41,271 nucleotides of DNA from Halobacteriales archaeon QS_4_66_20 (GTDB lineage: Archaea; Halobacteriota; Halobacteria; Halobacteriales; Haloarculaceae). The DNA lies in the NCBI GenBank assembly GCA_003021015.1, contig PXRK01000085.1, positions 1 to 41,271 of the forward strand. Reading direction: 5' to 3'. Position numbers and translations under genes: made by a program. This document shows positions 3,092-38,161 of this stretch, piece after piece. Below the pieces are notes generated by a model. It saw only the letters and a list, made by a program, of their open reading frames with translations. It made no database searches and had not been told where the DNA came from. How positions within the stretch are numbered: position 1 is the first letter of the stretch; each line of letters opens with the position of its first letter.

Positions 3092-4180
3092 ATGTCCGGT
3101 GGGCTCCGGGGACAGCTACGCCGCGGGGTGGTCTGGCTGGAACCGCCGCCGCGGGTGGTGGACTGGTCGATCTTCGGCGCAGTGCTGTTCCTCGCCGGGA
3201 CGGGCATCCTCTCATTTCTCGGTCACACCCCCGAGTGGATCGTCCTGTTCTGGGCCCACAGGCTGGTCGGGCTGTCGCTGATCCCGCTGCTGGCGTTCAA
3301 ACTCGCCCGCGTCCGGACGCGGCTGACCGACCCCGGGAACTGGCAGCTCTCGACGCCGCTGTCGATCCTGACTGGCGTCGCGGCACTCGTGGTGATCGCG
3401 ACGGGGGCGCTGTGGGTGTTCGGCGTCGAGCCCGATCTGGGGCCGGTGACGATGCTGAGCGTCCACGCCGGCCTGGGTCTGCTGCTGGTCCTGTTGATGG
3501 TGCTGCACGCCCGCACCCGCTTTCGCCCGCCCAGCACGCCGGAGTTCGCACGCCGCCGGACGGCGATGCAGTACGGGGCGATGCTCGTGGCTGCTGCGCT
3601 CGTCTACCGCGGGCAGACCCTGCTCAACGAGGTGTTCGACGCCGCCGGGGCGGACCGTCGGCTGACCGGGTCGCATCGACGGGAAGGCTCAGGCAACGAC
3701 AGCTTCCCCGTGGTCTCGTGGGTGGCCGACGACCCTGACCCGGTGGCTGTCGACGAGTGGGCGCTCGCCGTGGGGGGTACCGTCGAGGAGTCGCTGGCGC
3801 TGCCCTACGGGACACTCACACCCGACACCGTGGCGGAGGCGACCCTGGACTGTACCGGCGGCTGGTACACTGTCCAGGAGTGGGGCGGGGTTCGCGTCGG
3901 TGAGCTGCTGGATAAGGCTGGCGCCACCGGGGACGCCCGCTACGTCCGATTCGAGTCTGTCACTGGCTACCGGTGGAGCCTCCCCATCGAGGAGGCGAGG
4001 GGCGTGTTGCTCGCGACGCACGTGGGCGGCGAGCGGCTGAGCCACGGCCACGGCGCGCCGCTGCGGCTGGTCGCGCCGGGGCGGCGCGGCTTCCAGTGGG
4101 TGAAGTGGGTCGAGCGGGTAGAGGTTCGCCGCCGCGGCGACCCCGCGCAGTGGCTCGCGACGCTCGTCAGCGGCCTTTGA
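3092..4180 (+). CDS. Membrane-anchored molybdopterin-dependent oxidoreductase (sulfite-oxidase fold) fused to a cytochrome b-like domain
   Basis: A 362-aa fusion. Residues 1-180 form a membrane domain with about five helices (near 26-44, 50-70, 89-111, 120-139, 158-175); His45, His56, His125 and His139 are near helix ends and could ligate heme as in cytochrome b561-type subunits. Residues 200-362 form an oxidoreductase molybdopterin-binding domain like the sulfite oxidase/MsrP family; Cys254 in TLDCTGGWYT is the expected Mo ligand. The enzyme likely transfers electrons between an extracytoplasmic substrate and the membrane quinone pool; the substrate cannot be told. The stop codon TGA at 4178-4180 is also the first three bases of a repeat element, and the last 14 nt overlap the converging ATP-NAD kinase gene. 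Confidence 0.82.
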   Translation: MSGGLRGQLRRGVVWLEPPPRVVDWSIFGAVLFLAGTGILSFLGHTPEWIVLFWAHRLVGLSLIPLLAFKLARVRTRLTDPGNWQLSTPLSILTGVAALVVIATGALWVFGVEPDLGPVTMLSVHAGLGLLLVLLMVLHARTRFRPPSTPEFARRRTAMQYGAMLVAAALVYRGQTLLNEVFDAAGADRRLTGSHRREGSGNDSFPVVSWVADDPDPVAVDEWALAVGGTVEESLALPYGTLTPDTVAEATLDCTGGWYTVQEWGGVRVGELLDKAGATGDARYVRFESVTGYRWSLPIEEARGVLLATHVGGERLSHGHGAPLRLVAPGRRGFQWVKWVERVEVRRRGDPAQWLATLVSGL

Positions 4181-5261
4181 TACGGTCGTGCGTGATTATT
4201 TTCAGCACCGGGTCCCAATATCGGCGGTTTCGCGGTCTGAAACGCCCAATGCGTGACTCTATAGCGGTAAAGAGTCTGGTGTCGACGCGGAGGACGCCGA
4301 GGTCGTCCAGCTTGCGCCGCGAGGCGACGATTTCGACGTCGGACTGGCGGATCACGGCCGGCGAGATCTGCTGGTTGCCGCGGCCGAACACGAACCCCTG
4401 GCCGCCGATCGGCGTCACGACGATGACGTTGTCCTCGCCGAGATGGTCGAGGATTTCGGATTCGCTGGCGTCGGTCGCGAGCACCTCGCCGTCTCGGTAG
4501 ACGTCGACGCCGAGCGGCGACCCGTCGAACCCCAGTTTCTCCTTGATCGTCCCGACGGTGCTGCCCGGGCCGAGCACGTGCGTGACGCCGGGTTCGACCG
4601 CCTCGGCGACGCGGTCGGCGAGCCCCTCGACGCTGCCGCCGCCGAGCTGTTTGCTCGCCTGGCGCTGCTCGTCCGCCGGCACGCGCGCGACGGCCCGGAG
4701 TTCGGTGTGGACCTCCCCCTCGCGGTACTCGTCCTCGTCGATATCGTTGACCTCCGCGCGTTCCGTCTCCTCGAAGGTGCCCGCCACGTACCCCGCGGCC
4801 TCCGGCGTGACGCCGAAGACGGCCGAGTACACCTTGACGCCGGCCGGGACGCCGAGGATCGGTACGTCCGCATCGAGGTCGTCCAGCGTCTCCGCGACGT
4901 CAGCCGCCGTGCCGTCGCCGCCGGTGAACAGGATCAGGTCGACGCCCGCCTCGACGAACGCCCGGACGGCGTCCCTGGTGTCGGCCGCGCTGGTTGCGGA
5001 CTCGTCGGCGGGGTAGCCCACCACGGTCGGCTCGAAGCCGGCCTTGCGGGCCTCGGTTTCGCCCATGCGGCCGCCGACGGTGAGCAGCGCCACGTCCGCA
5101 CCCGAGTTCGCGAGCGCCCGGAGCGCGTCGCGGCCGCGGTCCGGCGCGCGCATCTCCGCGCCACGCTCGCGCGCCTCCGCGACCTTGCCGTCAGTGCCCT
5201 TGAGGCCGACCCTGCCACCCATCCCGGCGATGGGGTTGACGACGAATCCGATCCGGCGCAT
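4167..5261 (-). CDS. ATP-NAD kinase family protein (COG3199)
   Basis: A 364-aa predicted NAD(+) kinase that would make NADP from NAD and ATP or polyphosphate. The N-terminus MRRIGFVVNPIAGMGG and the GGDGT motif (114-118, in LFTGGDGTAADV) are diagnostic. An upstream in-frame start at 5288 would add nine basic residues; the ATG at 5261 gives the usual family N-terminus. The last 35 or so residues (about 4167-4277, including ESRIGRFRP and KIITHDRIKGR) are basic and unlike the rest of the protein; they are encoded by the repeat element at 4178-4264 and by the tail of the converging gene. This looks like a replaced C-terminus. Confidence 0.85.
   Translation of the reverse strand: MRRIGFVVNPIAGMGGRVGLKGTDGKVAEARERGAEMRAPDRGRDALRALANSGADVALLTVGGRMGETEARKAGFEPTVVGYPADESATSAADTRDAVRAFVEAGVDLILFTGGDGTAADVAETLDDLDADVPILGVPAGVKVYSAVFGVTPEAAGYVAGTFEETERAEVNDIDEDEYREGEVHTELRAVARVPADEQRQASKQLGGGSVEGLADRVAEAVEPGVTHVLGPGSTVGTIKEKLGFDGSPLGVDVYRDGEVLATDASESEILDHLGEDNVIVVTPIGGQGFVFGRGNQQISPAVIRQSDVEIVASRRKLDDLGVLRVDTRLFTAIESRIGRFRPRNRRYWDPVLKIITHDRIKGR
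4178..4264 (+). repeat. TGATA-end repeat copy 1, anchored at a stop codon
   Basis: The 18-nt end TGATACGGTCGTGCGTGA (4178-4195) begins exactly at the stop codon of the molybdopterin oxidoreductase gene, then continues TTATTTTCAGCACC like the other family members. Inside, arms at 4223-4231 (GGCGGTTTC) and 4239-4246 (GAAACGCC) form a hairpin. The far end (4247-4264) is only a weak inverted match, so the right border is approximate. The whole copy is also read in frame by the opposite-strand ATP-NAD kinase gene. Confidence 0.6.
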
Positions 5262-5333
5262 CGTACGTCGTTGGCGCGAGACGGTCAAAAGCGAACCGGA
5301 ATGCCCTAATTGGAGGCGTCACAACGGCCGGAC

Positions 5334-5456
5334 ATGTTGCTCCAGAACGCGACGCAGGTCGGCGTCGGTAGCACGCCCGTCGAAGTGGCCGCCTGGATCG
5401 TCCTGCTCGGCGGAATTTTGCTCACGGTGCTGTGGGCGAGACACCTGCTCGGCTGA
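5334..5456 (+). CDS. 40-aa single-pass membrane microprotein
   Basis: An ATG-to-TGA frame of 40 codons. The product starts MLLQNATQVGVGSTPVEVAA and carries one hydrophobic segment at about residues 19-34 (AAWIVLLGGILLTVLW), ending ARHLLG. It fills the gap between the divergent ATP-NAD kinase start (5261) and the end of the CinA-like gene, abutting the latter's stop at 5457 with no spacing. GC-rich third positions and the clean hydrophobic pattern suggest a real gene, but no function can be assigned. Confidence 0.55.
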   Translation: MLLQNATQVGVGSTPVEVAAWIVLLGGILLTVLWARHLLG

Positions 5457-6152
5457 TCAGGCGTCGTCCGGCGCCTCGACGTTCGCTTTTAGCCACGCTG
5501 TCGCCTCCGTGACGGTGTCCTCGTCGTATCCTTCGATTTTCAGCCGGACGTGTTCGCCGGGGTAGCTGCCGACGATCACGCCGAAGCGCTCGCGGAGTTC
5601 CTCGATCCTGTCCAGCAGTTCACTCTCCGGTTCGGGCGTCTCGACCGTTGCGACGTGTCTGACGTCGCCGCCGAACTCGTCGGCGATCAACTCGAACATC
5701 GCCTTCATCTCCGCCGGCAGGCCGGGCAGGACGTACACGTTGCCGATAGTACAGCCCGGCGCCACCCCTTCGGGGTTGCGCAGAAACGTCGCTTCATCCG
5801 GGATGGCCGTCGTCTCCGGCGCGAGGTCGTCCCCGCTGTAGCCGGCCTCCTCAGCCAGCCACCGCTCCGCCTCCTGGTCGGGCGCGACCTCGGTGCCGAA
5901 CGCCGCTGCGACCCCGTCCATCGTCACGTCGTCGTGAGTCGGGCCGAGCCCGCCGGTGACGATCACGGCGTCGTACTCGGCGCGGTACTCGTTGACAACG
6001 CGGGCGATGTCGGCCACCCGGTCGGGGATGACGGTCAGCCGCTCGACGTCCGCACCCGACGCTGTGAGCCGCTCACCCAACCACGCGGCGTTCGTGTTGA
6101 CTGTGTCTCCCGAGAGGATCTCGTCCCCGACTGTGATCAACGCGACGCGCAT
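5457..6152 (-). CDS. CinA/MoaB-like molybdopterin-binding domain protein
   Basis: A 231-aa protein made only of the MoaB/Mog-type (MPT-binding) fold found in the N-terminal half of CinA. It starts MRVALITVGDEILSG, keeps the nucleotide-binding-like motif GGLGPTHDD (67-75), and lacks the CinA C-terminal nicotinamide-nucleotide amidase domain. Such stand-alone proteins are usually annotated as competence/damage-inducible protein A or molybdopterin-binding protein; the true reaction may be ADP-ribose pyrophosphatase-like as in CinA. A start three codons upstream at 6161 (MSGM...) is equally possible. It converges with the 40-aa microprotein gene. Confidence 0.85.
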   Translation of the reverse strand: MRVALITVGDEILSGDTVNTNAAWLGERLTASGADVERLTVIPDRVADIARVVNEYRAEYDAVIVTGGLGPTHDDVTMDGVAAAFGTEVAPDQEAERWLAEEAGYSGDDLAPETTAIPDEATFLRNPEGVAPGCTIGNVYVLPGLPAEMKAMFELIADEFGGDVRHVATVETPEPESELLDRIEELRERFGVIVGSYPGEHVRLKIEGYDEDTVTEATAWLKANVEAPDDA

Positions 6153-6223
6153 ACCGCTCATTCGGACGGGACCGACAAAGCCTCACCGCCTCTGCGGGAC
6201 CGCTCACTCGGCTGCGAACATCC

Positions 6224-7012
6224 TCACCGCATCCCGGGTGGCGGCCCGTCGCCGCCGACGTCGTCGTCATCGACCTCGACGTCGAGCCCGACGTCCTCGC
6301 GTTTCTCCTTCGCCGCGCGGATCTGGCGGACGTAGTAGGCGATCCCGGCGACGCCGAGCAGCAGCGAGATGCCGATGATACCGCCGAAGATGTAGAGGTC
6401 ACGCAGCAGGTAAAAGCGGACGTCGATCGAGCCGTCCTCGATCTCGCCCCAGTACAGCGTCATGCGGTTGTCCTCGACCGTCGAGTCGTACCCGCCCGGA
6501 TCCGCCCGCGACAGCAGCGGAATGCCGACCCGCGTCGCGTTGGGGAGGGTCACCTCGTGGGAGCCCTCGACGTACACCGGCGTCGACCAGCTACGCCCGC
6601 TCCGGCCGGCACGGAACGCGACCGTGCCGTTCGACGCCGGGACCTGGACCTCCGTCGCGTCCGACCCCTCGACTGCGGTCAGGTTGGCGTGGCTCGCGTT
6701 CACGACCGTGCCGTTCGTGAATCTGAACTGCAGCGCCTCGATGCTCAGTGAACTGTCCCCGCGGAAGGTGCTCTCGCGGTACACTTCGACTGTCGACTGG
6801 TTCGTGAGTTCGATCACCGCCGAGTACTCCGGCGACGACAGCGAGAACGTCTCGCCGGTGATGAGCGTGTACGTCGTCGTGGCGTTCGTGTCCCAGTCGT
6901 ACTCGGCGTCCTCGGCGAGTTCGTCCTGAGAGATTTCCCCGCCGCCGGCCGAACAGCCCGCCAGGAACACGAGGAGGCCGAGGCCACAGATGATGAGCAC
7001 GCGGCGCTTCAT
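6224..7012 (-). CDS. Lipoprotein with C-terminal membrane anchor (DUF5803-like)
   Basis: A 262-aa exported protein. The N-terminus MKRRVLIICGLGLLVFLAGC is a lipobox signal peptide with the lipid-attachment Cys20 (LAGC). The middle is a beta-rich extracellular domain with several N-x-S/T sequons (for example NATTT, NQSTV, NASHANLT). A second hydrophobic segment lies near residues 207-227, followed by a charged cytoplasmic tail rich in Asp ending GDGPPPGMR. It is the third gene of an operon with tfe and the DUF2110 gene; its ATG overlaps the preceding stop by 4 nt (7009-7012), indicating translational coupling. The DUF number is from memory of this haloarchaeal gene order. Confidence 0.72.
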   Translation of the reverse strand: MKRRVLIICGLGLLVFLAGCSAGGGEISQDELAEDAEYDWDTNATTTYTLITGETFSLSSPEYSAVIELTNQSTVEVYRESTFRGDSSLSIEALQFRFTNGTVVNASHANLTAVEGSDATEVQVPASNGTVAFRAGRSGRSWSTPVYVEGSHEVTLPNATRVGIPLLSRADPGGYDSTVEDNRMTLYWGEIEDGSIDVRFYLLRDLYIFGGIIGISLLLGVAGIAYYVRQIRAAKEKREDVGLDVEVDDDDVGGDGPPPGMR

Positions 7013-7674
7013 GGGACGACACAGAGCAGTTCTGCCGGGACGTACTGGCCGATGCTCGCGAGCAACCCCGGCGGGTCGGTTCCCTCGCGGCAGACGATGC
7101 TCTGTTCGAGCAGCCCCAGGCGCTCGACGGTGACGATGTCCTCGGCGTGGCCCGCGCGGTTGACCGTCGCTCTGACTTCGGCGCGCGTCGCGCTGTTGAC
7201 GTTCACACGGCCGGTGCCCCGCGTCCACTCGTACAGGCGGTCACGCTCTGCGTCGGCAAGCCGCGGGGTGTCGCCGGCGACGAACCGCAGCGGGACGTGC
7301 TGGACGAGGCCGAAGCGGGTCCGGAGCTGCCCGGCGTCGCCGGGCCCCAGCCCGAGTTCGTCGGTGGGGATCCGGACCTCGCGACCGGCGTCGAGGACGA
7401 ACCCCTCGGCGTCCCAGGATTCGAGGGTGCCGACGGCTTCCTGGCCGGGCTCCAGGTGTGGCGTGATCTCGCCCCAGCGCTCCCGGAGCAGGTTCCGGAC
7501 CGCAGTCGCGTCCTCGCCCTCGACGGTCACCGACGGGAACCCGTCGTCGCGCAGCCCCACCTCGAAGGTGACCGAGAGTTCGCCGACGCCGTTCTCGACG
7601 AGCGACCCGAGCGAGTCCAGCGCCCGCTCGCGGGCGTCGCCCTCGACGTAGCATTTCGTGGCGAGTACGACCAT
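7009..7674 (-). CDS. DUF2110 family protein
   Basis: A 221-aa soluble protein that starts MVVLATKCYVEGDARERALD and is placed directly after tfe, the usual position of DUF2110 in haloarchaea. No enzyme motif is seen; the middle section (WDAEGFVLDAGREVRIPTDE) resembles a small beta-barrel RNA-binding domain, and the part around residues 160-190 (VNVNSATRAEVRATVNRAG) reads like a helix-hairpin-like segment, both suggestions only. The ATG at 7674 shares one base with the tfe stop codon, and its own stop overlaps the lipoprotein start, so the three genes form a tightly coupled operon. Confidence 0.75.
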   Translation of the reverse strand: MVVLATKCYVEGDARERALDSLGSLVENGVGELSVTFEVGLRDDGFPSVTVEGEDATAVRNLLRERWGEITPHLEPGQEAVGTLESWDAEGFVLDAGREVRIPTDELGLGPGDAGQLRTRFGLVQHVPLRFVAGDTPRLADAERDRLYEWTRGTGRVNVNSATRAEVRATVNRAGHAEDIVTVERLGLLEQSIVCREGTDPPGLLASIGQYVPAELLCVVP

Positions 7675-8207
7675 CAGACCTCGACCTGGGCGGTGTCGAC
7701 GTTGAGTTCGTCCCGCAGCGCCTCGATCCGCCCCTCCATCGCATCGAGCAGCCGCGTGTTCTCCATCGGTTCGACCGAGGAGCCACACTGCGGACACTCG
7801 AAGCCGAACTCCATCGCCTCGTCGAACTCGAAGCGGATGCCACACTGCTCACAGAGGTAGAACTCGTTTTGCAGCTCGTACTCGTGGCGGCCCTCCAGCG
7901 CCGCGAGCAGGCGGTGCATCTCCTCCTCCAGTTGCTCGGGAATCTTGTCGTACTCGAACGTCCAGAGGTACGTGAGCCACCCCGAATCCTCGTCCCGGAG
8001 CCGCCTGTAGCTCGCCAGGTCGTTCTCGTACAGGATGAACAGCGCCCGGCGGACGTCGTTGAGTTCCAGCCCCAGCTCCTCCGCGAGTTCTTCGTCGGTC
8101 ACCTCGCCGTCCGGCGGCGCCGCCGCGACGGGCATCCCCTTCGGGCCGACGAGTTCGTGGAGGTACTTCTGAATCACCGGATCCTCCAGGAGTTCCTCAA
8201 AAGCCAT
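7674..8207 (-). CDS. tfe: Transcription initiation factor E subunit alpha (TFE)
   Basis: A 177-aa archaeal TFE-alpha, homologous to the large TFIIE subunit. It helps RNA polymerase open promoters at weak TATA elements. The N-terminal winged helix (about 1-90) has the typical MAFEELLEDPVIQKYLHELVG start; a zinc ribbon follows with CEQC (119-122) and CPQC (138-141). Length is normal. It is the first gene of an operon with DUF2110 and a lipoprotein gene, with a TATA-like box 25-32 nt upstream. Confidence 0.97.
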   Translation of the reverse strand: MAFEELLEDPVIQKYLHELVGPKGMPVAAAPPDGEVTDEELAEELGLELNDVRRALFILYENDLASYRRLRDEDSGWLTYLWTFEYDKIPEQLEEEMHRLLAALEGRHEYELQNEFYLCEQCGIRFEFDEAMEFGFECPQCGSSVEPMENTRLLDAMEGRIEALRDELNVDTAQVEV

Positions 8208-8230
8208 TACTCGAACAACGGGGAGTCACT

Positions 8231-8240: not shown

Positions 8241-8301
8241 CACCGGGTCGTCCCGGCCAGTCCCGACCTGTCCCGACTTATCTGAGGCCTACTCCGCTGT
8301 G

Positions 8302-21415: not shown

Positions 21416-21531
21416 TAGCACCCCTTTACAGCAATCTCCGATAAGGGTTATGAACCATCTGCGGCGCCCTCTAGGACCTATGCAAACAGTATTCCAGACG
21501 AACGATCCGAGCTGTTGATTGTCCAGTCGGG

Positions 21532-22247: not shown

Positions 22248-22296
22248 TCGTACTGATTGTTGTGATTATTGTAAAGACTCACAACAGTCAGTATCA
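22248..22296 (-). repeat. TGATA-end repeat copy 2, short palindromic form at the pus10 stop
   Basis: Read on the minus strand, TGATACTGACTGTTGTGA (22296-22279) starts at the TGA stop codon of pus10. The other end (22248-22265, TCGTACTGATTGTTGTGA) matches it in inverted orientation at 15 of 18 positions, so this 49-bp copy is nearly two terminal repeats back to back. A GTCTTTACAATAAT tract lies between them. Confidence 0.65.
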
Positions 22297-23598
22297 CTCT
22301 TCGTCACCGTCCCCGGAGTCGTCTCGGAAAAACGCCGGCTGCTCGAACGGTTCGTCCTCACCCCGGACCTCGAGCACGTCCAGCGCAGTGACCTCGGCGT
22401 CGACGCCAAGCAGGCCCGCGAGGCTCGGCTCCGTCCGTCCGTCGTCGCTGCTGACGAGTTCCTTGACGTACAGCCCGCCCTCGCCGTGGATCTCGACCGT
22501 CGCGTGACGCTCGCCGTTCAGCTCCCCCGACGCCTCGTACACGGACCGGACGCGGGTCTTCGCGGCTCTGCGATGTGAAACGCGCTGGGGCGTCTCCTGC
22601 TCGACCGTCGCGCTCTCGAGTTCGGCCAGCGCTCCCTCGAACGCTTCGGAGTCGACCGTCTCGGCGAACTCGACGTCCATCCGGTAGGTCTTGCTGGCGT
22701 CGAGTTCCTTGACCCGCTCGACCATATCGTGAGTTGCCAGCCGGAGGCCCTCGACTTCGACCCGGCCGTCGGCGACTTCGTTGATCCGCTCCTGGACGGC
22801 ATCGGTGTCGATCGATCGCTTGCGCGGTTCGTCGATTTCGATCACGAACGGCCGCCCGGAGCCGAGCATGAGTGCGTCGACGTCCTCGCGGCCGGCACCG
22901 TGGAACGTCCCGCTGTCGCCGTTCATGGCGTCTTCGACGATGGGGACAGTCTCCTGCTCGACGCTCGTGTCGTACCGGTAGCCCGTCCCGTCACAGCCGT
23001 CGCAGTGTGAGCCCTGGTCCAGTCCCGTCCCGTTGCACTCGCGGCAGGGCCACTCCGTCTGGGGGACGTCCCGTTCGAGTTTCCGGTAGCGGCCGTAGAC
23101 GAACGCGGAGTTGACCTGGGCCTCGACCTCGTCGGTCGCCAGGTCACACAGCACGAGCAGGTCCGGCCGCTCGAAATCGACCGTCGTCCCGGTCATCTCG
23201 CCGAGGCGCTTGCCCACCTCGCGGTTGCACTCGCTTTTCAGCAGTTCGCCCGCCTCGGGGTCGAGGCCCGCGTCCTCGCGGAGCAGGCGGTCGTTCTCCT
23301 CCAGCAGCGGCGGCACCTTCGTCCCCACCTGGTAGGTGTCGAACTCGTAGCCGTGGACAGCGGCTGTGGCCTGCTCGGCCCACCACTCGAAACGCTCGCA
23401 CTCGTCCTCACAGACCCAGCAGGGCTCCTCCGGCGGGTCGAACTCCTCGTCGTCCGCAAGCGCGACCGCGATCCGCAGACTCCGCCCGCGCTCGTCGTTC
23501 GAGAGCCCGAAACTCCGGTCGGCGACGAGCCGGCCGAGGCAGTTGTCGCACACCGGCCCGGAGTCGAGCGCCCGCCGGGCGGTCGAGAGCACTGTCAT
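22294..23598 (-). CDS. pus10: tRNA pseudouridine(54/55) synthase Pus10
   Basis: A 434-aa archaeal Pus10 that makes pseudouridine 54 and 55 in the tRNA T-loop. The N-terminal zinc/THUMP-like half has CDNCLGRLV (18-26), CWVCEDEC and a CRECNGTG...CDGCDGTG zinc-finger-like region; the catalytic half shows the conserved Asp in AGREDVDALMLGSGRPFVIE (about residue 236) and the downstream motif DASKTYRMDVEF. The start MTVLSTARRALDSGPVCDNC is normal for haloarchaea. Its TGA stop is the first three bases of a repeat element. Confidence 0.93.
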   Translation of the reverse strand: MTVLSTARRALDSGPVCDNCLGRLVADRSFGLSNDERGRSLRIAVALADDEEFDPPEEPCWVCEDECERFEWWAEQATAAVHGYEFDTYQVGTKVPPLLEENDRLLREDAGLDPEAGELLKSECNREVGKRLGEMTGTTVDFERPDLLVLCDLATDEVEAQVNSAFVYGRYRKLERDVPQTEWPCRECNGTGLDQGSHCDGCDGTGYRYDTSVEQETVPIVEDAMNGDSGTFHGAGREDVDALMLGSGRPFVIEIDEPRKRSIDTDAVQERINEVADGRVEVEGLRLATHDMVERVKELDASKTYRMDVEFAETVDSEAFEGALAELESATVEQETPQRVSHRRAAKTRVRSVYEASGELNGERHATVEIHGEGGLYVKELVSSDDGRTEPSLAGLLGVDAEVTALDVLEVRGEDEPFEQPAFFRDDSGDGDEE

Positions 23599-23712: not shown

Positions 23713-25014
23713 ATGACCCAGGACGGATGGCTCGCGGCGGCGACTGGCCGCCCGCTCGTCGCCCGGCGGTACTTCGGTGCCTGGCTGGTGCTGCTCGCGA
23801 CGCTCCCCCTGGGGCTGTATCGGTACTACACCAGCCCCGACATCGGACTCCTCACCTGGCGGGTGGGCGAATCGACCTCCGGTGCGTACATGGGGATCAA
23901 CTACCACGTCTACCACGTCGCTGCCCAACGCGTGCTCGCGGGGGAGCCGTTCTACGGCGTGGCGCCGGATACCGCGACCGGCAACTTCGTCTATCTCTAC
24001 CCGCCAGTCACCGTCACCGGCTTCCTCCCGTTCGGCTCCCTGGACTGGACGACGGGATACCTGGTGTTCACGTTCCTGAGCCTCTGTGGCGCGCTCGCCG
24101 CGACCGTCGTCGTCGTCCGCTACGTCGAATCGCTCGGAACGCCGCTGGGCTGGCTCGACCTCGCGCTGGTGTTCGGGCTGTTCGCCCTGTCGATCCACGT
24201 CAGTGCCACGGTCTACTTCGGGAACATCAACGTCCTCCTCGGGCTGGCGTTCGCAGCCGGCTTCTGGGCCCTCCGGCAGGACCGGGAGTGTGCCGCCGGG
24301 ACCGCCTTCGGTATCGCGGCACTGTTCAAACTGTTCCCGGCGCTCGTCGGACTCTGGCTGCTCCGGGACCGCCGGTGGGAAGCCACCGCGGCCGCTATCG
24401 GGACCGGCGTCGCCGGCCTCCTCGCGGGGATCGCCCTCTTCGGCGTCGACACGACAGTGCACTTCTTCAGGACCGTCGTTCCGAACCGATCGGATTCGGC
24501 GGCGTTCGTCGGCGGTCTCCCGGCTGACGGGCCGTTCTACGTGACTGTCCAACGTCCGCTTTCGCACCTGCTCTGGGGGCTCTGGCCTGGTGCGCCGTAC
24601 CCCCTGCTTCCGGCGAGCGCGGCCCTGGTCTGTGGCGCGACGCTCGCGGTGTTCTACCGCCGGATCGAAACCGAACGTGACCGGCTGATGGCTATCTTCG
24701 CTACGGTCGTCGTCACGCTCGTTGCCGTCCCGTCGTTCAGGCTGTACGCACCCCTGCTGTTCCTGCCCCTGGTCGCCCTGCTGTACACCTGGACCGACGG
24801 AGCCGGCAGGCGGCTGTTTCTCGCCGGGGGCCTGCTGTTCTCCGTCGTCGCACGGCCGCGCCACGTGCTGACCGCTTCGGAGTTTCTCGGGCCGCTGGAA
24901 GCGCCGGTCGCGGCCGCCGGGCGGGTTGTGACCATCCAGCTTCTGGCCTACGGCGTCATGCTTGCGGCCTGTGGCTGGCACCTGCACAGCGGCGAAAACA
25001 TCCATCGACAGTAA
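23713..25014 (+). CDS. Glycosyltransferase family 87 (DUF2029) membrane protein
   Basis: A 433-aa polytopic protein with about ten hydrophobic segments. Membrane GT-C enzymes of this family (mannosyl- or arabinosyl-transferases using polyprenyl-phosphate sugars) have an acidic motif in the first extracytoplasmic loop; here the loop GINYHVYHVAAQRVLAGEPF and the following FVYLYPPVTVTGFLPFG are family-like. The ATG at 23713 (MTQDGWLAAATG) is preferred over a GTG eight codons upstream. It probably adds a sugar on the outer face of the membrane. A repeat element starts 5 nt after its TAA stop. Confidence 0.8.
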   Translation: MTQDGWLAAATGRPLVARRYFGAWLVLLATLPLGLYRYYTSPDIGLLTWRVGESTSGAYMGINYHVYHVAAQRVLAGEPFYGVAPDTATGNFVYLYPPVTVTGFLPFGSLDWTTGYLVFTFLSLCGALAATVVVVRYVESLGTPLGWLDLALVFGLFALSIHVSATVYFGNINVLLGLAFAAGFWALRQDRECAAGTAFGIAALFKLFPALVGLWLLRDRRWEATAAAIGTGVAGLLAGIALFGVDTTVHFFRTVVPNRSDSAAFVGGLPADGPFYVTVQRPLSHLLWGLWPGAPYPLLPASAALVCGATLAVFYRRIETERDRLMAIFATVVVTLVAVPSFRLYAPLLFLPLVALLYTWTDGAGRRLFLAGGLLFSVVARPRHVLTASEFLGPLEAPVAAAGRVVTIQLLAYGVMLAACGWHLHSGENIHRQ

Positions 25015-25018
25015 CCAC

Positions 25019-25132
25019 TGATACTGCCGGACGTGACTATGTTACTCCGAGTGATGCTCGGACTGGGGTTTTCGGTTGTCTCAGATGCTGAGCGCTATCC
25101 GGGTGGGAACGGAATCACGTCCGGCAGTATGA
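25019..25132 (+). mobile_element. TGATA-end repeat copy 3, 114-bp MITE-like element
   Basis: Terminal inverted repeats TGATACTGCCGGACGTGA (25019-25036) and its reverse complement at 25115-25132 match at 17 of 18 positions. Its last 52 bp (25081-25132) recur at 38110-38161 with one mismatch. The element has no coding capacity and lies in sense orientation 5 nt after the stop of the GT87 gene. The end sequence GCCGGACGTGA links it to the element at 32-144. No target duplication is obvious. Confidence 0.75.
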
Positions 25133-25199
25133 TTACTGGCGCAGGGCGGCCGTCACAGCAAAAATCCAACGATCAGGCACTGCACGAAGGGAGCCCAAA

Positions 25200-29456: not shown

Positions 29457-29542
29457 TCATAGTGATTTTTGTGAGTCGTTCCGGGATCGACCGCACGACT
29501 GCGTGCGGCCGACCCGGTAAACAGTCACAAAACTCACTATCA
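29457..29542 (-). repeat. TGATA-end repeat copy 4, 86-bp palindromic element at a stop codon
   Basis: On the minus strand TGATAGTGAGTTTTGTGA (29542-29525) begins at the TGA stop of the acidic membrane protein gene. The opposite end TCATAGTGATTTTTGTGA (29457-29474) matches it in inverted orientation at 16 of 18 positions. The interior has a further perfect hairpin (CCGCAC and GTGCGG around 29491-29508). It separates that gene from the dys promoter region. Confidence 0.72.
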
Positions 29543-30403
29543 GATGATCGGTTCGGCATTCTCGCGGATGATGAGGTACGCGGGGACGGCCATGACGTTC
29601 AGCGCCGGAATCATTGAGAAGAACGCCCAGAACAGCGGCCCGCCATCCCAGTCGGTCGTCGTGCGGAGGTTCCACGCATCGAGGTACACCGACGCTGGCA
29701 GGATCAGCAGCGTCGATACGAGCCACAGGAAAAAAAACGGCGCGTTAAACACGAACGACCCGAGGCCGAAGATGCCCGCGAGCGCGATCAGCAGGCTCGG
29801 CACGAGTCCCGCGATGATCCCGTAGAAGCCGCGCGAATCCCCTCGTGGCTCCTCGTCGGGCAGCACCGGCACGTAGTACCCGTCCTCGATCGTCAGGAGG
29901 ATCGTCTCGCCGTGGATGTCGGCGAACCGGTCCATCGGGATGTCGCGCAACGAGAGCAGGCGCGCCAGCCGCGGATCGGTGCCCTGGTCGGGCCACTCGA
30001 AGTAGACCACGACCGTCTCGTTGTCCGCGTCGACTATCGACAGCTGCAGCGCCAGCGCCTCCTCGGTGTCGATCTCGGCCGGGTAGTCGTCCGGAATCTC
30101 GCTGGTCGGGACGCGCTCGACGCCGATCGCCTCCCCGCGACCGCGCATCCCCTCCGCGAGCCCCTTCATCTCCTGCTCGACCTCGACGAACGACTGTGCG
30201 GCGTGATCTAGCTCCGCCTTCTCGGGGTCCTCGGCCATCTCCGCCGAGTCTGACTCTGCCGAGTCTGACTCCGCGTCGGCGTCCGACCCCTCGGCGGTGC
30301 TGGCGCTCCCCTCCTCGGGTGCCTCGATCGTTGTCGTCGTCTCGGCGCTGCTGCTCGCCTCCGTCTCGGCCCCTTCGCCGTCCAGTTCGTCGTCTCCCGT
30401 CAC
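29540..30403 (-). CDS. Acidic-N-terminus membrane protein of unknown function
   Basis: A 287-aa protein. Residues 1-65 are low-complexity acidic and Ser/Ala/Thr-rich (for example SDADAESDSAESDSAEMAED), probably disordered. Residues 70-185 form a soluble domain with the segment TVVVYFEWPDQGTDPRLARL. Residues 195-287 hold three hydrophobic segments (near 197-217, 219-240 and 260-280). No known family is recognised; similar haloarchaeal proteins are annotated only as hypothetical. The start MTGDDELDGEG is ATG-type or GTG-type at 30403, divergent from the thymidylate kinase gene. The stop codon is provided by a repeat element. Confidence 0.72.
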   Translation of the reverse strand: MTGDDELDGEGAETEASSSAETTTTIEAPEEGSASTAEGSDADAESDSAESDSAEMAEDPEKAELDHAAQSFVEVEQEMKGLAEGMRGRGEAIGVERVPTSEIPDDYPAEIDTEEALALQLSIVDADNETVVVYFEWPDQGTDPRLARLLSLRDIPMDRFADIHGETILLTIEDGYYVPVLPDEEPRGDSRGFYGIIAGLVPSLLIALAGIFGLGSFVFNAPFFFLWLVSTLLILPASVYLDAWNLRTTTDWDGGPLFWAFFSMIPALNVMAVPAYLIIRENAEPII

Positions 30404-31109: not shown

Positions 31110-31149
31110 TGCGATGTGGTGGCGAAAATACTCACACCAATCGCTATCA
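31110..31149 (-). repeat. TGATA-end repeat copy 5
   Basis: On the minus strand TGATAGCGATTGGTGTGA (31149-31132) starts 7 nt after the stop of the 122-aa protein gene. The 40 bases 31110-31149 match the copy at 37598-37637 at 33 of 40 positions, including the GTGAGTATTTTCG T-rich stretch. It fills the gap between convergent tmk and the 122-aa gene. Confidence 0.65.
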
Positions 31150-31156
31150 GTCAGAA

Positions 31157-31525
31157 TCAGGAGACGCCGGACTCCAGATTCTCCAGGAGTTTGCCGACGA
31201 AAAGCCCCAGGCGCGGGGAGATGTCGTCCTCGCTGGCCGGTTCGGCAGGTTGTGCGGCGAGCGTCTCGACGAACCGCTCGGAGTGTGTCATCGCGTTGAT
31301 GATGTCGACGACGTCCACCGTCAACCCCTCGTCGGAGGTGTCGAGGTCGGGGTGGCGCTGCTTGGCCTCCTCGGGGTAGGTGATCGTCCACGAGGGGCCG
31401 CCTATCGTTGCGAGCACGTCCCCAACGTCGCCGACTTCGAGCCGGCCGTCCGGGATACCGACGTAGATGCTCCCATCCTCGACGTCCGTGCCGTACCGAT
31501 CCATCGTGTCCCCGTTCGCAGCCAT
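31157..31525 (-). CDS. Small soluble protein of unknown function
   Basis: A 122-aa acidic protein beginning MAANGDTMDRYGTDVEDGSI. An alternative start at Met8 (31504) gives MDRYGTDVED. It contains a conserved-looking segment TITYPEEAKQRHPDLDTSDE and TVDVVDIINAMTHSERFVET. No family or motif is recognised. It overlaps the out-of-frame 3' part of the broken MTH1187-family gene upstream and ends 7 nt before a repeat element. Confidence 0.6.
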   Translation of the reverse strand: MAANGDTMDRYGTDVEDGSIYVGIPDGRLEVGDVGDVLATIGGPSWTITYPEEAKQRHPDLDTSDEGLTVDVVDIINAMTHSERFVETLAAQPAEPASEDDISPRLGLFVGKLLENLESGVS

Positions 31526-33752: not shown

Positions 33753-33818
33753 TCCGTAGTGATTGACGCCGTCGAGTAAAGTGAGTTACTGTCATTCCTC
33801 GGCGGTGGCAGCGAGTCG

Positions 33819-34409
33819 TCAGGACTCGTATTCCAGCCAGAGGTACTTCGTGGCGTAGCTCCGGTAGGGCTCCCAGTCGCGGGCTTTCTCGACCATCTCC
33901 TCGCGGCTCATGTCGCCGTAAATCTCTACCATCCCGCGACGCACGCCGAGGTCACCGATCGGGAACACGTCGTCGCGCCCGAGTACGAACAGGAGGTACA
34001 TGTCGGCAGTCCACCGGCCGACACCGCGGATCTCGGTCAGGGTCTGGACGACCGCCTGCTCGCTGGCCTCCCTGAGAACGTCCGGTGCGATGACCCCGTC
34101 CGCGTACGCGCCTGCGACGTTTCGAATGTACTCGGCCTTCTGTCCGCCGACGATCGCTGCCAGCGGCTCCTCGCCGTACTCCATGACGGCTTCGGGTGCG
34201 ATCGGCTGCTCGAACGCCGAGAACAGGTCCTCGCGGATCGAGTCGGCAGCGGCGGTGCTGATGCTCTGGTTGACGATCGACACCACGAGCCGCTGGAAGG
34301 GGTGCTCGGCCGGGGTGACCGTCACCGGCCCGTGCCTCGCCACCAGCTCCGCCATGGGATCGTCCGCCTCGAGAACCGCAGCGACGTCCGGATCCAGTTT
34401 CGCTGTCAT
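33819..34409 (-). CDS. DNA-3-methyladenine glycosylase II family (AlkA-like, HhH-GPD)
   Basis: A 196-aa DNA glycosylase of the helix-hairpin-helix GPD superfamily, removing alkylated purines. The region [20 protein letters not shown] (37-56) is the family entry; the HhH is [20 protein letters not shown] (124-143), and the catalytic Asp153 lies in [12 protein letters not shown]. It lacks the N-terminal TBP-like domain of E. coli AlkA, as in short archaeal forms. It is divergent from the pelota gene, with a gap of about 120 nt. Confidence 0.9.
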
Positions 34410-34497
34410 CCTGCGGCCCAGTTAGAGCCAGGGGGCCGGATACGTTTCGGTCCAGGGCGTCACCCCGGCGGCACCTCCGCCGCGCCGAGTTGGCAAG

Positions 34498-34505
34498 CCC
34501 TAAAC
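34498..34505 (+). promoter_or_regulatory. TATA-like box for the pelota gene
   Basis: CCCTAAAC lies about 27 nt before the ATG at 34529 and supports this start over the longer frame from 34490. Confidence 0.4.
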
Positions 34506-34528
34506 CGTTCTGCGCCGGAGAGGGAGGT

Positions 34529-35596
34529 ATGCGAATCGCCGACCGTCACCAGGTCGACGGGGAGCGCGAGCGGCTGACGGTGGTCCCCGAGAACGTCGAC
34601 GACCTCTGGCACCTCTCGCACGTGATCGAGCCGTGCGACCGCGTCGCCGGGGACACCACCCGCCGGATACAGCGCAACGACGACCAGCTCCGGGACACCG
34701 GCGGCGAGCGCGAACACCTTTGGGTCGAGATCGGCGTCGAGGACGTCGAGTTCGCCCGCTTCGCCAACCGCCTGCGGGTCGGCGGCGTGATCGAGGACTG
34801 CTCGCGGGAGGATCAGCTCGGCCTCCACCACACGATCAACGTCGAGGACAACGCCGAGATCGAGATCGAGAAACGGTTCAAACCTGACCAGCGCGAGCGC
34901 ATCGAGGAGGCGGTGGAGGCGACCGACGTCCCGGACGTCGCCATCGCGACAGTCGAGGAGGGCCAGGCGTACGTCCACTCCGTCGCACAGTACGGCACCG
35001 AGGAGCGCGCGTCGATCACCGCCCCCACAGGGAAAGGCGAGTACGCCCGCCCGCGGAAGGAACTGTTCGAGGAACTCGCCACCGTCCTGGGGCGACTCGA
35101 CGCCGACGCGATCATCCTCGCGGGCCCCGGCTTCACCAAACAGGACGCCCTCGACTACATCGAGGAGCACGCGCCCGATCTGGTCGAGCGGATCACCACC
35201 GTCGACACGAGCAGCGTCAGCGACCGCGGCGTCCACGAAGTGCTGAAACGCGGCGCGGTCGAGGACGTCCAGCAGCAGACCCGCATCGCCGCCGAATCGG
35301 AGCTGATCGACGACCTCATGGAACGCATCGCCGAGGGCTCGGAAGCCGCCTACGGCCCCGAGCAGGTGGCGAAAGCCGCCGACTACGGCGCAATCGAACA
35401 CCTGCTGGTCCTCGACGAGCGGCTCCGGATCGAGCGCGCCGGCGACGGCGACTGGGACGTCGACGTCGACGCCATCGTGGAAACGGCCGAGCAGAAAGGC
35501 GGGGAGGTGACCGTCTTCTCCAGCGAGTTCGACCCCGGCCAGCAGCTGGCGAACCTCGGTGGTATCGCCGCCCTCCTGCGGTATCGCCTGGACTGA
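34529..35596 (+). CDS. pelA: mRNA surveillance protein pelota
   Basis: A 355-aa archaeal pelota (Dom34), the eRF1-like factor that with aEF1A/ABCE1 frees stalled ribosomes. The Sm-like N domain starts [20 protein letters not shown]; the linker [24 protein letters not shown] precedes the central domain ([20 protein letters not shown]); the C domain includes [19 protein letters not shown] and ends ALLRYRLD, the usual end. The ATG at 34529 is right after GGGAGGT. An extension to 34490 has no family similarity. A tandem repeat-end sits 24 nt after the stop. Confidence 0.95.
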
Positions 35597-35619
35597 CCAG
35601 CTGAAAAGCCGCTACAGCC

Positions 35620-35660
35620 TGATACGGTCGTGCGTGATACTGATTGTCGTGAGTGTTTTC
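35620..35660 (+). repeat. TGATA-end repeat copy 6, two ends overlapping in tandem
   Basis: TGATACGGTCGTGCGTGA (35620-35637), identical to the copy-1 end, is immediately followed with a 3-base overlap by TGATACTGATTGTCGTGA (35635-35652), then GTGTTTTC. So two variant ends are stacked with a 15-nt period. It is 24 nt after the pelota stop, in sense orientation. Confidence 0.65.
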
Positions 35661-35668
35661 GACACCTC

Positions 35669-35758
35669 GGGAGGGAGCAGGTCGACAGCGGCGAGACGAT
35701 CATCGGCAGGGACTCGTTCACCGAACACACGTACGAACTCCCGATCGAAACGTCCTGA
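35669..35758 (+). pseudogene. Possible gene-end remnant
   Basis: One frame reads REQVDSGETIIGRDSFTEHT followed by a short tail ending LPIETS and a TGA stop. Composition looks like the C-terminal end of an extracellular beta-sandwich or lipoprotein-type haloarchaeal protein, but no start or body precedes it: the upstream bases belong to a repeat element. It may be the leftover of a deleted gene; evidence is weak. Confidence 0.25.
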
Positions 35759-35810
35759 TCGCGGTGCATCCATACGCAGTCCCTGTCTCTGGTTCAGAAA
35801 CTGAATAGCA

Positions 35811-35818
35811 ACATACAA
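35811..35818 (+). promoter_or_regulatory. TATA-like box for the ABC exporter operon
   Basis: ACATACAA lies about 29 nt before the ATG at 35844. Confidence 0.4.
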
Positions 35819-35843
35819 ACCTCGATCACTTGAAGCGTCGCCC

Positions 35844-36773
35844 ATGTCAGTAATCGAGACCCAGGGGTTGACGAAGCGGTACGGGGCAGTCACCGCCGTC
35901 GAGAACCTCTCGATACGGATCGAAGAGGGGGAGATCTTCGGCTTCCTGGGGCCCAACGGAGCGGGGAAGTCGACGACGATCAACATGCTGCTCGATTTCG
36001 CCAAACCGACCTCGGGGAGTGCCCGGGTGTTCGGGATGGACTGCCAGGAGAACGGCAAGCAGATCCGGCGACGGATCGGCGTGCTGCCGGAGGGGTACGA
36101 CGTCTACGAGCGGCTGACCGGCCGCCAGCACCTGGAGTTCGTCCTCGAATCGAAGGAGGCAAATGAGGACATCCACGCGCTGCTGGACCGCGTCGGCATC
36201 GCTGGCGACGCCGACCGGAAGGCCGGCGACTACTCGAAAGGGATGAAACAGCGCCTCGTGCTGGCGATGGCGCTGGTCGGCGACCCCGACCTGCTGATCC
36301 TCGACGAGCCCACGACCGGGCTCGACCCCAACGGCGCCCGCGAGGTCCGCCGGATCATTCAGGAGGAGAACGACCGCGGGACGACCGTCTTCTTCTCCAG
36401 TCACATCCTCGAACAGGTCGAGGCCGTCTGCGACCGCGTCGGGATCCTGCGCGACGGGGAACTGGTCGCGGACGACTCCATCGAGGGGCTCCGCGCCAAC
36501 GTCGGCGGCGGCGAGACGCTGGTCGTCGAGGGCGAGGGCTTCACCGAGGAAGTCGTCCGGAACGTCGAAGCGATGGACGGCGTCGCGGGCGTGCAGGTGC
36601 GGGGCGGCGGATCGGAGCTTGCGATAAACGTCGGCCAGGACGTCAACAAGTCCGAGGTACTCGGGCTGATCGAGGACGCCGGTGCAACCGTCGCTGACTT
36701 CTCAACCGAGGAGGCGTCGCTAGAGGAGCTATTCGCCTCGTACACGACCGACTACGGGGGTGCAGAGGCATGA
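35844..36773 (+). CDS. ABC transporter ATP-binding protein (ABC-2 type exporter)
   Basis: A 309-aa ATPase. Walker A is GPNGAGKST (36-44), the signature region is DYSKGMKQRLVLAMAL, Walker B is LLILDEPTTGLDPNG, and the H-loop is FFSSHILEQVEAVCDRVGIL. The C-terminal 80 residues form the extension typical of CcmA/NosF/Nod-type subunits, ending with EEASLEELFASYT. It overlaps the permease gene by 4 nt (ATGA at 36770-36773), so the two form one operon. Substrate is unknown; NosF-type or general lipid/antibiotic exporters share this layout. Confidence 0.93.
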   Translation: MSVIETQGLTKRYGAVTAVENLSIRIEEGEIFGFLGPNGAGKSTTINMLLDFAKPTSGSARVFGMDCQENGKQIRRRIGVLPEGYDVYERLTGRQHLEFVLESKEANEDIHALLDRVGIAGDADRKAGDYSKGMKQRLVLAMALVGDPDLLILDEPTTGLDPNGAREVRRIIQEENDRGTTVFFSSHILEQVEAVCDRVGILRDGELVADDSIEGLRANVGGGETLVVEGEGFTEEVVRNVEAMDGVAGVQVRGGGSELAINVGQDVNKSEVLGLIEDAGATVADFSTEEASLEELFASYTTDYGGAEA

Positions 36774-37600
36774 GCTGGACGGCGATCGCCAAGAAAGACC
36801 TCCAGGACAGCATCCGCTCGCGAACGCTGTGGGCGACGATCGGGATCTTCCTGGGGCTGATCCTGCTTCTGTCGTGGCTGTTCACCGACGGCTCCGGCGA
36901 GGAGACGTTCATCGCGGCCGCCGGGTTCACGTTTCTCATCGGCGTCCTGTTTTTCGTCCCGATGGCCGGCCTGCTGCTTAGCGTGAAGTCGATCATCCGC
37001 GAGCGCAACTCCGGAACGATCAATCTGCTCCTCTCGCTGCCACACACCCGCGGCGAGATGATCCTCGGCAAGTTCGTCGGGCGCTCGATCGTCATGGTCG
37101 TCACCGTCCTGGCGGGCTTTCTGCCCGCGCTGCTGTACATCTTCGTACAGGTCAACGGAACGGACGTCATCCAGCTGTTGACATTCCTCTTTGCTCTCAG
37201 CGTGTTCGGCATCATGTGGATCGGCATCGGAATCGGCCTCTCCGCGCTGGTCAACAGCGAAACGCAGGCCACCATCACCGGTGTCGTGATGTTCGCTGTG
37301 CTGATCCTGTGGCCGCTCATCTTCGAACAGGCCGGCATCGACCTCCCGTCGTTCGCCCAGCGGTTCTGGCTGCTCGTCATCTTCGCCGACCTCTTTTTCC
37401 TCCCTGGCAGGATTGCCGACGGCGATTTCACCTTCCCCTCGGTCGTCGAGTTCGACGAGGTACTCCTCGAGGAGGTCAACGACGTCGCAATCTCCGTCGG
37501 GCCGCACCTGCAGATGTGGTTCGTGGTCGTCCTGGTCGCGTTCTGGATCCTCCTCCCGATCGGGGTCGGGTACTACCGGTTTAGCAGCACTGACCTCTGA
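36770..37600 (+). CDS. ABC-2 type transporter permease
   Basis: A 276-aa membrane subunit starting MSWTAIAKKDLQDSIRSRTL, the common N-terminus of NosY-like permeases. About six hydrophobic segments are seen (near 22-44, 49-70, 104-126, 131-155, 168-190, 247-266), plus the conserved short motif RERNSGTINLLLSLPHTRGE between the second and third. It partners with the ATPase encoded immediately upstream. Its stop codon TGA (37598-37600) is also the start of a repeat element. Confidence 0.9.
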   Translation: MSWTAIAKKDLQDSIRSRTLWATIGIFLGLILLLSWLFTDGSGEETFIAAAGFTFLIGVLFFVPMAGLLLSVKSIIRERNSGTINLLLSLPHTRGEMILGKFVGRSIVMVVTVLAGFLPALLYIFVQVNGTDVIQLLTFLFALSVFGIMWIGIGIGLSALVNSETQATITGVVMFAVLILWPLIFEQAGIDLPSFAQRFWLLVIFADLFFLPGRIADGDFTFPSVVEFDEVLLEEVNDVAISVGPHLQMWFVVVLVAFWILLPIGVGYYRFSSTDL

Positions 37601-37649
37601 TAGCGATTGTTGTGATTGTTTTCGGCGTTACATCGCAATATCACTATGA
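37598..37649 (+). repeat. TGATA-end repeat copy 7, at the permease stop
   Basis: TGATAGCGATTGTTGTGA (37598-37615) begins at the TGA stop of the permease gene and is followed by TTGTTTTCGGCG. The far end (TCATAGTGATATTGCGAT on the minus strand, from 37649) is a partial inverted match. The first 40 bases match copy 5 at 33 of 40 positions. Confidence 0.68.
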
Positions 37650-37671
37650 CAGGAGCCAAATCACGTCCGGG

Positions 37672-37679
37672 TGTATAAG
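37672..37679 (+). promoter_or_regulatory. TATA box of the VOC gene
   Basis: TGTATAAG is centred about 27 nt before the ATG at 37703. Confidence 0.55.
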
Positions 37680-37702
37680 GACGTCGCCGACGACGGGGTA
37701 GT

Positions 37703-38101
37703 ATGGACGTCGTCGACCTCGACCACGTGGCGATCCGCGTATCGGATCTCGACCGGGCGCTGTCGTTCTACCACGACCTGCTGGGCATGGAACTCCGCGA
37801 CCGGGAGCGATACGACGCCGGCGAGGTCCCGTACGTGGCCGTCGTCGCGGGTGGCCGTCACGTGCACATCGTGCCGACCGAGGAGGAGTTCACAGTCGAA
37901 CGGGAGCATATCTGCTTTCTCCTCCGGTCTTCGGAGGTCGACTCCCGCGAGGAACTGGAGGACCTGCTCGACCGGCTCCGCGAGGAGGGTATCGAGGTCG
38001 AGGAGGGGGAGCCGTACAGGCGCTACGGCGCCTACGGCCGCGCCTGGGCCGCCTACGTCCGGGATCCCGACGGCCGGCGCGTCGAACTCAAAATCCACTG
38101 A
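37703..38101 (+). CDS. Single-domain VOC (glyoxalase/bleomycin resistance) family protein
   Basis: A 132-aa VOC protein. It starts MDVVDLDHVAIRVSDLDRAL with a metal-binding His8 and ends YVRDPDGRRVELKIH with the usual Glu ligand. The segment SFYHDLLGMELRDRERYDAG is typical. The family includes glyoxalase I, methylmalonyl-CoA epimerase and antibiotic-binding proteins; nothing here decides between them. Its TGA stop is part of a truncated repeat element that also lies 3' to the convergent arcS gene. Confidence 0.85.
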   Translation: MDVVDLDHVAIRVSDLDRALSFYHDLLGMELRDRERYDAGEVPYVAVVAGGRHVHIVPTEEEFTVEREHICFLLRSSEVDSREELEDLLDRLREEGIEVEEGEPYRRYGAYGRAWAAYVRDPDGRRVELKIH

Positions 38102-38161
38102 TACTGCCATCAGATGCTGAGCGCTATCCGGGTGGTAACGGAATCACGTCCGGCAGTATGA
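38099..38161 (+). mobile_element. TGATA-end repeat copy 8, internally deleted derivative of copy 3
   Basis: TGATACTGCC (38099-38108) starts at the TGA stop of the VOC gene. It is followed after one base by 52 bp (38110-38161) that match 25081-25132 at 51 of 52 positions, ending with the terminal repeat. Compared with copy 3, about 50 inner bases including half of the left terminal repeat are missing. Confidence 0.75.

Follow-up and report, generated by a model that had tools for sequence, protein, structure and literature searches.

Eight sites in a 41,271-nt stretch of the Halobacteriales archaeon QS_4_66_20 (contig PXRK01000085.1, C85 of the draft genome and hereafter the window) share an 18-nt end of the form TGATA...GTGA at or near the stop codon of the gene upstream, which raises the question of whether the repeat brings or creates the stop codon, as the first-pass annotation proposed, and what kind of element it belongs to. 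Re-reading the window bore out every one of the eight sites. The TGA of the repeat is the in-frame stop codon at five of them (4178, 22296 on the minus strand, 29542 on the minus strand, 37598 and 38099), and at the remaining three the upstream stop starts 7 (25019), 10 (31149, minus strand) or 26 nt (35620) before the repeat TGA. As repeat units these sites are real, but each is only the TGA-reading end of a larger inverted-repeat element, and partners that had gone unlisted complete elements of 43, 108, 80 and 57 bp at 22296, 25019, 29542 and 38099, respectively. The dys stop (28287), put forward as a possible ninth case, reads TGATTTC..., does not match the 18-nt pattern and is to be left out of the family. 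We conclude that the repeats are very probably the two inverted ends of a non-autonomous palindromic cut-and-paste superfamily, similar to miniature inverted-repeat transposable elements (MITEs) and small mobile repeats (SMRs), which is moved in trans.

Inverted ends and a duplicated TSA target

The genome, a 2.89-Mb draft in 86 contigs from the host group Halovenus, holds 264 matches to the TGATASNGNNNNNNGTGA pattern compared with 2 for the reversed-pattern control, so that the genome-wide search advised in the first-pass annotation returns copies far beyond chance. In 260 kb of sequence from this genome (67 stretches and the window), we found 62 complete inverted pairs, short and non-coding, with the layout TGA, a 15-bp inverted repeat TA[CG]NG(N6)GTGA ... 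TCAC(N6)CN[CG]TA, and TGA. The ends are inverted repeats down to the last base; their inner bases differ among subfamilies and covary on both arms, with compensatory change in 8 of the 15 end pairs. Among the elements listed or fetched, lengths peak at 80 and 107–109 bp. Gene statistics were made on 59 orientable pairs, three having been dropped for want of TGA/TCA on a usable side; 37 of the 59 measure 108–109 bp and 10 measure 80 bp, giving 47 at 80, 108 or 109 bp, and the rest are shorter or longer. The interior of the 109-type elements has two unlike conserved motifs next to the ends, about GTGANTNTTTACCG at one and GTGANTATTTTCGG at the other. Clustering 122 solo ends by their inner sequence gave 11 groups of two to three and no larger element among them.

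The window features of this family are listed below, together with their state in two genomes of the same genus, G006 (94–98% identity with the window where synteny is close) and G017 (77–93%).

4178 to 4276, plus strand: 109-type element with a TACGGTCGTGCGTGA end; the left target-site duplication, TGA 4178–4180, is the stop codon of the open reading frame (ORF) 3092–4180, and the right inverted repeat is lost.
22248 to 22296, minus strand: internally deleted 43-bp element (22251–22293); the target-site duplication TGA 22294–22296 is the stop codon of ORF 22294–23598, and the other flank is CGA (one change).
25019 to 25132, plus strand: complete 108-bp element (25022–25129) with flanks TGA 25019–25021 and TGA 25130–25132; the upstream stop is a TAA.
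29457 to 29542, minus strand: complete 80-bp element (29460–29539) with flanks TGA 29540–29542 (stop codon of ORF 29540–30403) and TGA 29457–29459.
31132 to 31149, minus strand: solitary TGA-reading end downstream of ORF 31157–31525, common to G006.
33793 to 33795, minus strand: empty target site (TCA on the plus strand); in G006 the site is filled by an 80-bp element flanked by TCA on each side, and G017 is likewise empty.
35620 to 35652, plus strand: two nested left ends, the second sitting inside the GTGA of the first (35620/35635).
37598 to 37649, plus strand: degenerate 46-bp element with a partial right end and flanks TGA 37598–37600 (stop codon of ORF 36770–37600) and TGA 37647–37649.
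38099 to 38161, plus strand: internally deleted 57-bp element (38102–38158) with flanks TGA 38099–38101 (stop codon of ORF 37703–38101) and TGA 38159–38161.

No inverted partner was found for the 31149 end or for the nested ends at 35620–35652. The 4178 element can be aligned with related copies across 4180–4276, and the 38099 element, part of whose left repeat is gone, has the identical form in G006 and a longer counterpart in G017 with another element nested inside it (target-site duplication TCA). An Rfam search of the window gave 0 matches at gathering scores. Two further observations concern the surrounding DNA: the minus-strand ORF 4167–5288 traverses the truncated 4178–4276 element, which seems to be the source of part of its C-terminus, and ends within the coding end of its neighbour (4167); and the region of the 25019 element (24992–25171) is replaced in G006 by ∼2 kb of non-aligning DNA (G006:C67:13729–15713).

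Identical TGA or TCA triplets stand on both flanks in 51 of the 62 complete pairs, and the flanks of these 51 insertions carry C at position −1 in 67% and G at position +1 in 57%, compared with 26% and 22% in the noncoding background. The middle base of the triplet is nearly always G or C, and the preferred target is the palindrome C|TSA|G (S standing for G or C) with a 3-bp TSA duplication. To look for empty sites, we joined the flanks of those among 132 elements that had enough flank, and obtained junction-spanning matches for 17. The empty allele has a single TGA/TCA for 9 of the 17, both flanks being cleanly aligned in seven of the nine; the other two (window 29460 and L153:3224 of G017, both compared with G006) have one diverged flank. 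Several of the nine cases are elements nested in other copies, and a few rows for paralogues of these nine have GCA, CCA, TGC or TGG at the triplet. The 29460–29539 element, for example, is absent from G006, which has one TCA there and a diverged outer flank, while the same stop codon (29540–29542) is occupied in G017 by a different, 109-bp element (L153:3224–3332), and the 37598 stop is present in G017 without the element of the window. These empty sites show that the triplet pre-exists and is then duplicated, which overturns the idea that the repeat brings or creates the stop codon. Loci of other genomes, fetched with no condition on their flanks, gave the same picture, with 34 of 36 ends adjoining TGA/TCA and a matching triplet on both sides of 22 of the 27 ends that have a partner. 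TGA and TCA are the two strand readings of one site, so the triplet does not in itself act as a stop signal.

Both polarities of the triplet occur. Relative to the asymmetric ∼80-bp element, we counted 19 TCA and 18 TGA (42 rows, some of which are one copy in overlapping loci), and in the own genome the A end faces TGA in 21 cases and TCA in 9, another 21 being ambiguous, which fits symmetric double-strand integration and not a strand-specific HUH enzyme. Movement of the palindromes by an HUH/Y1 enzyme, as in REPIN/RAYT or IS200/605–PATE systems, with TGA as a guide to the cleavage site and no true duplication, would account for palindromic, intergenic elements in many copies with a conserved triplet on both flanks, and the lean of 21:9 in the own genome would agree with it. 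However, the fixed target polarity of REPIN and IS200/605 elements was not found, both polarities against asymmetric ends (19:18; 21:9) are unexpected from such an enzyme, and the ends match as inverted repeats to the very last base, so we regard this explanation as highly improbable. The observations are of inverted ends, a 3-bp TGA/TCA duplication, a C..G preference, nesting, a copy-number burst and both polarities; with the empty sites, they uphold the earlier description of the repeats as miniature palindromic mobile units.

The excess at stop codons

Genes were taken from our own codon-usage caller, which misses some (e.g. at 10.3–14.4 kb of the window); since missed genes cause ‘intergenic’ TSA sites to be over-counted, we added a control limited to TSA sites within 100 nt downstream of a gene. 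The element TGA is the exact stop of a called gene in 19 of the 59 orientable elements, and in 14 of the 51 with a full duplication, whereas only 82 of the 1539 noncoding TSA sites (5.3%) are stop codons. Against the tighter control, the ratio is 19 at the stop to 21 downstream compared with 133 to 364 among the sites on offer (p = 0.0095; odds ratio 2.5), and after weighting for the C/G context it is 19 to 17 with an expected stop share of 32% (p = 0.009). By the same method, 8 of 17 elements in other genomes, mostly of other genera but with two loci from this one, lie at stop codons; the share is 8/30 in Halovenus-type metagenome-assembled genomes and isolates, 2/6 in G006/G017 (p = 0.13) and 0/1 in a small leftover group. 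Loci were de-duplicated for this replication, and eight from unrelated bacteria, being chance matches, were excluded. On a Natribaculum luteum plasmid with independent annotation, one of four elements lies exactly in the trmO stop, the gene table being incomplete.

The first-pass annotation held that the elements insert at or create gene ends and that all eight are in sense with their genes, and it suggested stop-codon and orientation bias as a check. The excess at stop codons stands, but creation of the stop does not, as the triplet was there first. The sense orientation of the eight is as read, but it was helped by seeking only the TGA-reading end, and an overall orientation bias is absent: intergenic copies away from stops lie 20 in the same and 17 in the opposite direction (533:643 available, p = 0.32). 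A sense excess does appear among copies up to 200 nt past the end of a called gene (19:6 compared with 280:255 available, p = 0.024), but at shorter distances it is not significant (15:6 up to 100 nt, p = 0.26; 9:5 up to 60 nt, p = 0.59).

Coding sequence offers 3392 TSA sites, yet none of the 59 complete elements is contained in a called gene, a weak call being overlapped by one of them. C directly precedes the stop at a frequency of 0.44 compared with 0.26–0.30 at other noncoding TSA sites. Three things make TGA stops hotspots: they are legal targets, an insertion does no harm since duplication of the triplet leaves the gene with its stop, and the preceding base is often C. In the simplest account, legal target, harmless outcome and favourable context explain much, but not all, of the excess, and a modest remainder is unexplained. 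That purifying selection and target sequence act alone, without gene ends being actively favoured, is a refinement compatible with mobile elements moved in trans, and one towards which we lean: no copies are found inside called genes, C before the stop is common, and the enrichment falls to ∼1.6-fold (19/36, or 53%, compared with 32%) against nearby downstream TSA sites once context is weighted. The residual excess (p = 0.009) and a stop codon that received a different element in each of two lineages speak for something more.

The inner hairpin and the driver

All four elements tested fold end to end (z −5.0 to −7.4). In the 109-type consensus (22 of 65 oriented rows of 106–110 bp, clustered at 88%), there is no inner helix and only the 15 end pairs form structure; a conserved RNA in this type was therefore rejected. 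The 80-bp alignment, made from 42 rows near 80 bp by taking one representative for each of 15 clusters and excluding L303 (72 bp) to leave 14, has an inner helix of eight pairs, in which 90.2% of cells are paired compared with 51.6% in shuffles, and 41 cells are double-changed compared with 17.3, while the pairs that show a double change at all are no more numerous than in shuffles (7 compared with 6.8). Shuffle tests can be inflated by related sequences, whereas slid controls retain the relatedness, and sliding the helix by 1–3 columns drops the pairing to 19.6–45.5%. Pairing position i with 81 − i without an alignment (12 clusters, 35 distinct elements) gave 77% Watson–Crick pairs at the inner positions compared with 23–33% at shifts. 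The hairpin of the 80-bp class is thus retained while its sequence changes, and it is probably needed for the function or mobility of the element.

A hairpin at a gene end recalls the earlier proposal of portable terminators. Transcription terminators or 3′-end RNA elements retained at gene ends by selection would explain the stop-codon excess, the sense excess within 200 nt, the long hairpins and the covarying inner helix of the 80-bp class, and a run of at least four T within 60 nt is commoner where a gene has an element close to its end (22/71 compared with 21/147, p = 0.006). However, runs of at least five T are not enriched (3/71 compared with 9/147, p = 0.76), and the T-rich TTTTC end is inconsistently placed, being gene-proximal in 4 and distal in 6 elements at stop codons and proximal in 7 and distal in 16 over all classes (59 orientable elements, one end having TTTTC). 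In the 80-bp class the hairpin follows the T-run, and the order of an intrinsic terminator, a hairpin and then a T-run in sense, was not found; nor does the lack of overall orientation bias among non-stop intergenic copies, or the confinement of 109-type consensus structure to the 15-bp ends, favour termination. We thus consider this reading quite unlikely, and the T-run near element-bearing gene ends is possibly a side effect and not a consistent function.

For elements moved in trans, an enzyme supplied from elsewhere would recognise the 15-bp inverted repeat and make a 3-nt staggered cut in the symmetric C|TSA|G target; the element would then be inserted, and repair would duplicate TSA. Judged by the geometry of the target only, the enzyme may be a DDE-type transposase of the IS5/PIF-Harbinger kind. 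PF01609 matches occur in four of five genomes, with one in the own genome, and no matching ends were found beside PF01609 genes at the five loci examined. Two long inverted pairs with matching triplets from own loci were considered as an autonomous element and rejected, as no transposase-like ORF was seen by eye; one of the long pairs (L049) encloses a putative RimK/LysX-like ORF. Inspection by eye of 13 further long-pair rows, in which some pairs are represented by two records, and of L108 likewise gave no transposase.

Several points weigh against this preferred explanation. We found no autonomous copy or matching transposase, the search being of PF01609 only in five draft genomes, from which the parent may be missing. 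Eight of the 17 empty-site queries are not clean: two are poor alignments (one with TCA against TGA), two are records of one nested case, three are TA-type records of two sites, and one has unequal flanks. The polarity in the own genome leans one way, and two dominant near-fixed lengths (80 and 107–109 bp), together with a covarying inner hairpin, are unusual for elements that arose from a transposon by passive deletion. Moreover, the otherwise similar SMRs of Haloquadratum are said to make no target duplication (PMC3119063). It is conceivable, though we doubt it, that these are a family of ‘self-healing’ mobile hairpins found throughout the haloarchaeal class, with near-fixed lengths (80 and ∼109 bp) and no encoding parent. 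They would be served by a separate enzyme with a symmetric C|TSA|G target for which TGA stops are safe harbours, and compensatory change would maintain the inner hairpin as the strand, folded as cruciform DNA or RNA, would itself take part in mobilisation. Under the MITE-like explanation that we prefer, a duplicated triplet that can be a stop codon would allow gene ends to be invaded at no coding cost, and the stop-codon pattern becomes a testable insertion mechanism.

Distribution, sibling families and known systems

The 18-nt pattern was surveyed in 59 genomes, 18 of them of the same genus including the own genome, with 0–3 matches per genome for the reversed control. Five of these 18 have most copies: they number 264 in the own genome, 173 in G006, 138 in G017, 101 in G009 and 24 in G008, and at most 13 in each of the other 54. 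Because four genomes of one genus hold 101–264 copies beside sisters at or near chance, the driver can be searched for by comparison. Beyond the genus, a stricter A-end pattern is found in 17 of 392 haloarchaeal genomes (11 of 95 genera) and a stricter B-end pattern in 5 of 392 (4 genera), the own genome included in both. The whole-element pattern (spacer 40–70) is found in 15 of 391 haloarchaeal genomes and 12 of 86 genera, the reversed control giving 0 in every genome listed. Although 76–106 bp was allowed, among the 49 matches listed 45 are 86 bp long (80 bp and two triplets), three 85 bp and one 105 bp. In a separate search, named hosts among the matches listed include H. salina, SHR40, Tc-Br11_E2g27, SW_7_65_23, SW_10_66_29 and LUM.78. 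The element is also present in three Natribaculum species, on plasmids, and a Halovenus salina plasmid has one partial match. Matches in viral contigs (1 and 26 stretches) were judged to be chance, with no inverted partner within the 130 nt examined, and phages gave no matches. The elements are thus real, mobile and spread across haloarchaea, and their stop-codon feature has an ordinary explanation in a duplicated stop-codon target; less ordinary are a covarying hairpin whose length hardly departs from 80 bp and the failure to find a driver.

An inverted-end search of the window also revealed a relative of another target type.

32 to 144, no strand assigned: sibling element of the TA-target type, with ends TAGACAGCCAGACGTGATTC / GAGTCACGTCTGGCTGTCTA.

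This sibling family, with ends TACAGCC[AG]GACGTGA and the window copy TAGACAGCCAGACGTGA, makes a 2-bp TA duplication, as window position 21479 is empty (CCTATGC) where G006 has TA..TA (C67:10126–10234). A further sibling end, TACTGGTGGCTGT(GA/AC), occurs in G017:C20 (L153:12892–13048), L245, L250, L261 and L075, the G017 copy being nested in an older 38099-type element with a TCA duplication. Separately, the own genome has a repeated unit that is itself a target of the TSA elements.

C13:1854–5079, C24:6969–9986, C9:7146–11585 and C35:26854–29871, and L220: repeated unit CGAGTATCGACCC TGA CAGTCCCGAGTTGTGTCGAGATGA, with variants.

Palindromic intergenic elements are familiar in Bacteria, where ERIC, RUP, Correia elements and REPINs are examples; ERIC and RUP insert at TA, and the mobility of REP/REPIN sequences is GTAG-tagged and single-stranded. 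The haloarchaeal elements resemble these as imperfect palindromes of ∼80–130 bp that have many copies and cluster. In the open-access literature (subscription papers and ISfinder being outside our scope), we found no description of TGA/TCA duplication or stop-codon insertion by such haloarchaeal elements. A 2024 review of MITEs in prokaryotes does not use the term ‘stop codon’ in its main text (PMC10969869), and the elements listed for Halobacterium salinarum are reported to have target duplications of 5 to 8 bp (PMC10264941).

Two systems come closer. The SMRs of Haloquadratum walsbyi comprise SMR-A of ∼110 bp and HqIRS41 (SMR-B) of 80 bp, and their description reports inverted terminal repeats unlike those of any known transposon, no transposase, nesting in other mobile elements, a mobilisation called ‘enigmatic’ and no target duplications, SMR-A favouring palindromes of IS605-type elements and PATEs (PMC3119063). 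By comparison, our elements are similar in their lengths of 80 or ∼110 bp with inverted terminal repeats, in having no transposase that we could find and in nesting, but differ in the 3-bp TSA duplication and in their occurrence at stop codons; they are set apart by description and not by sequence, and the Haloquadratum plasmid PL47 has one lone motif match, with no partner and no element. A precise target, its duplication, an end consensus and size classes are now given for transposase-free haloarchaeal repeats of a kind previously called enigmatic. The second system, the eukaryotic NuwaII group of IS5/PIF-Harbinger-type transposons, is reported to have the target C|TNA|G and a 3-bp target-site duplication (PMC4482050). 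Short, non-coding and bounded by terminal inverted repeats and a target-site duplication, the haloarchaeal elements have these features in common with MITEs, and they share with those of the NuwaII type the C|TSA|G target, the 3-bp TNA-type duplication and short inverted repeats, while differing in a middle base that is nearly always G or C, in the lack of a transposase in our searches, in the inner hairpin and in belonging to Archaea.

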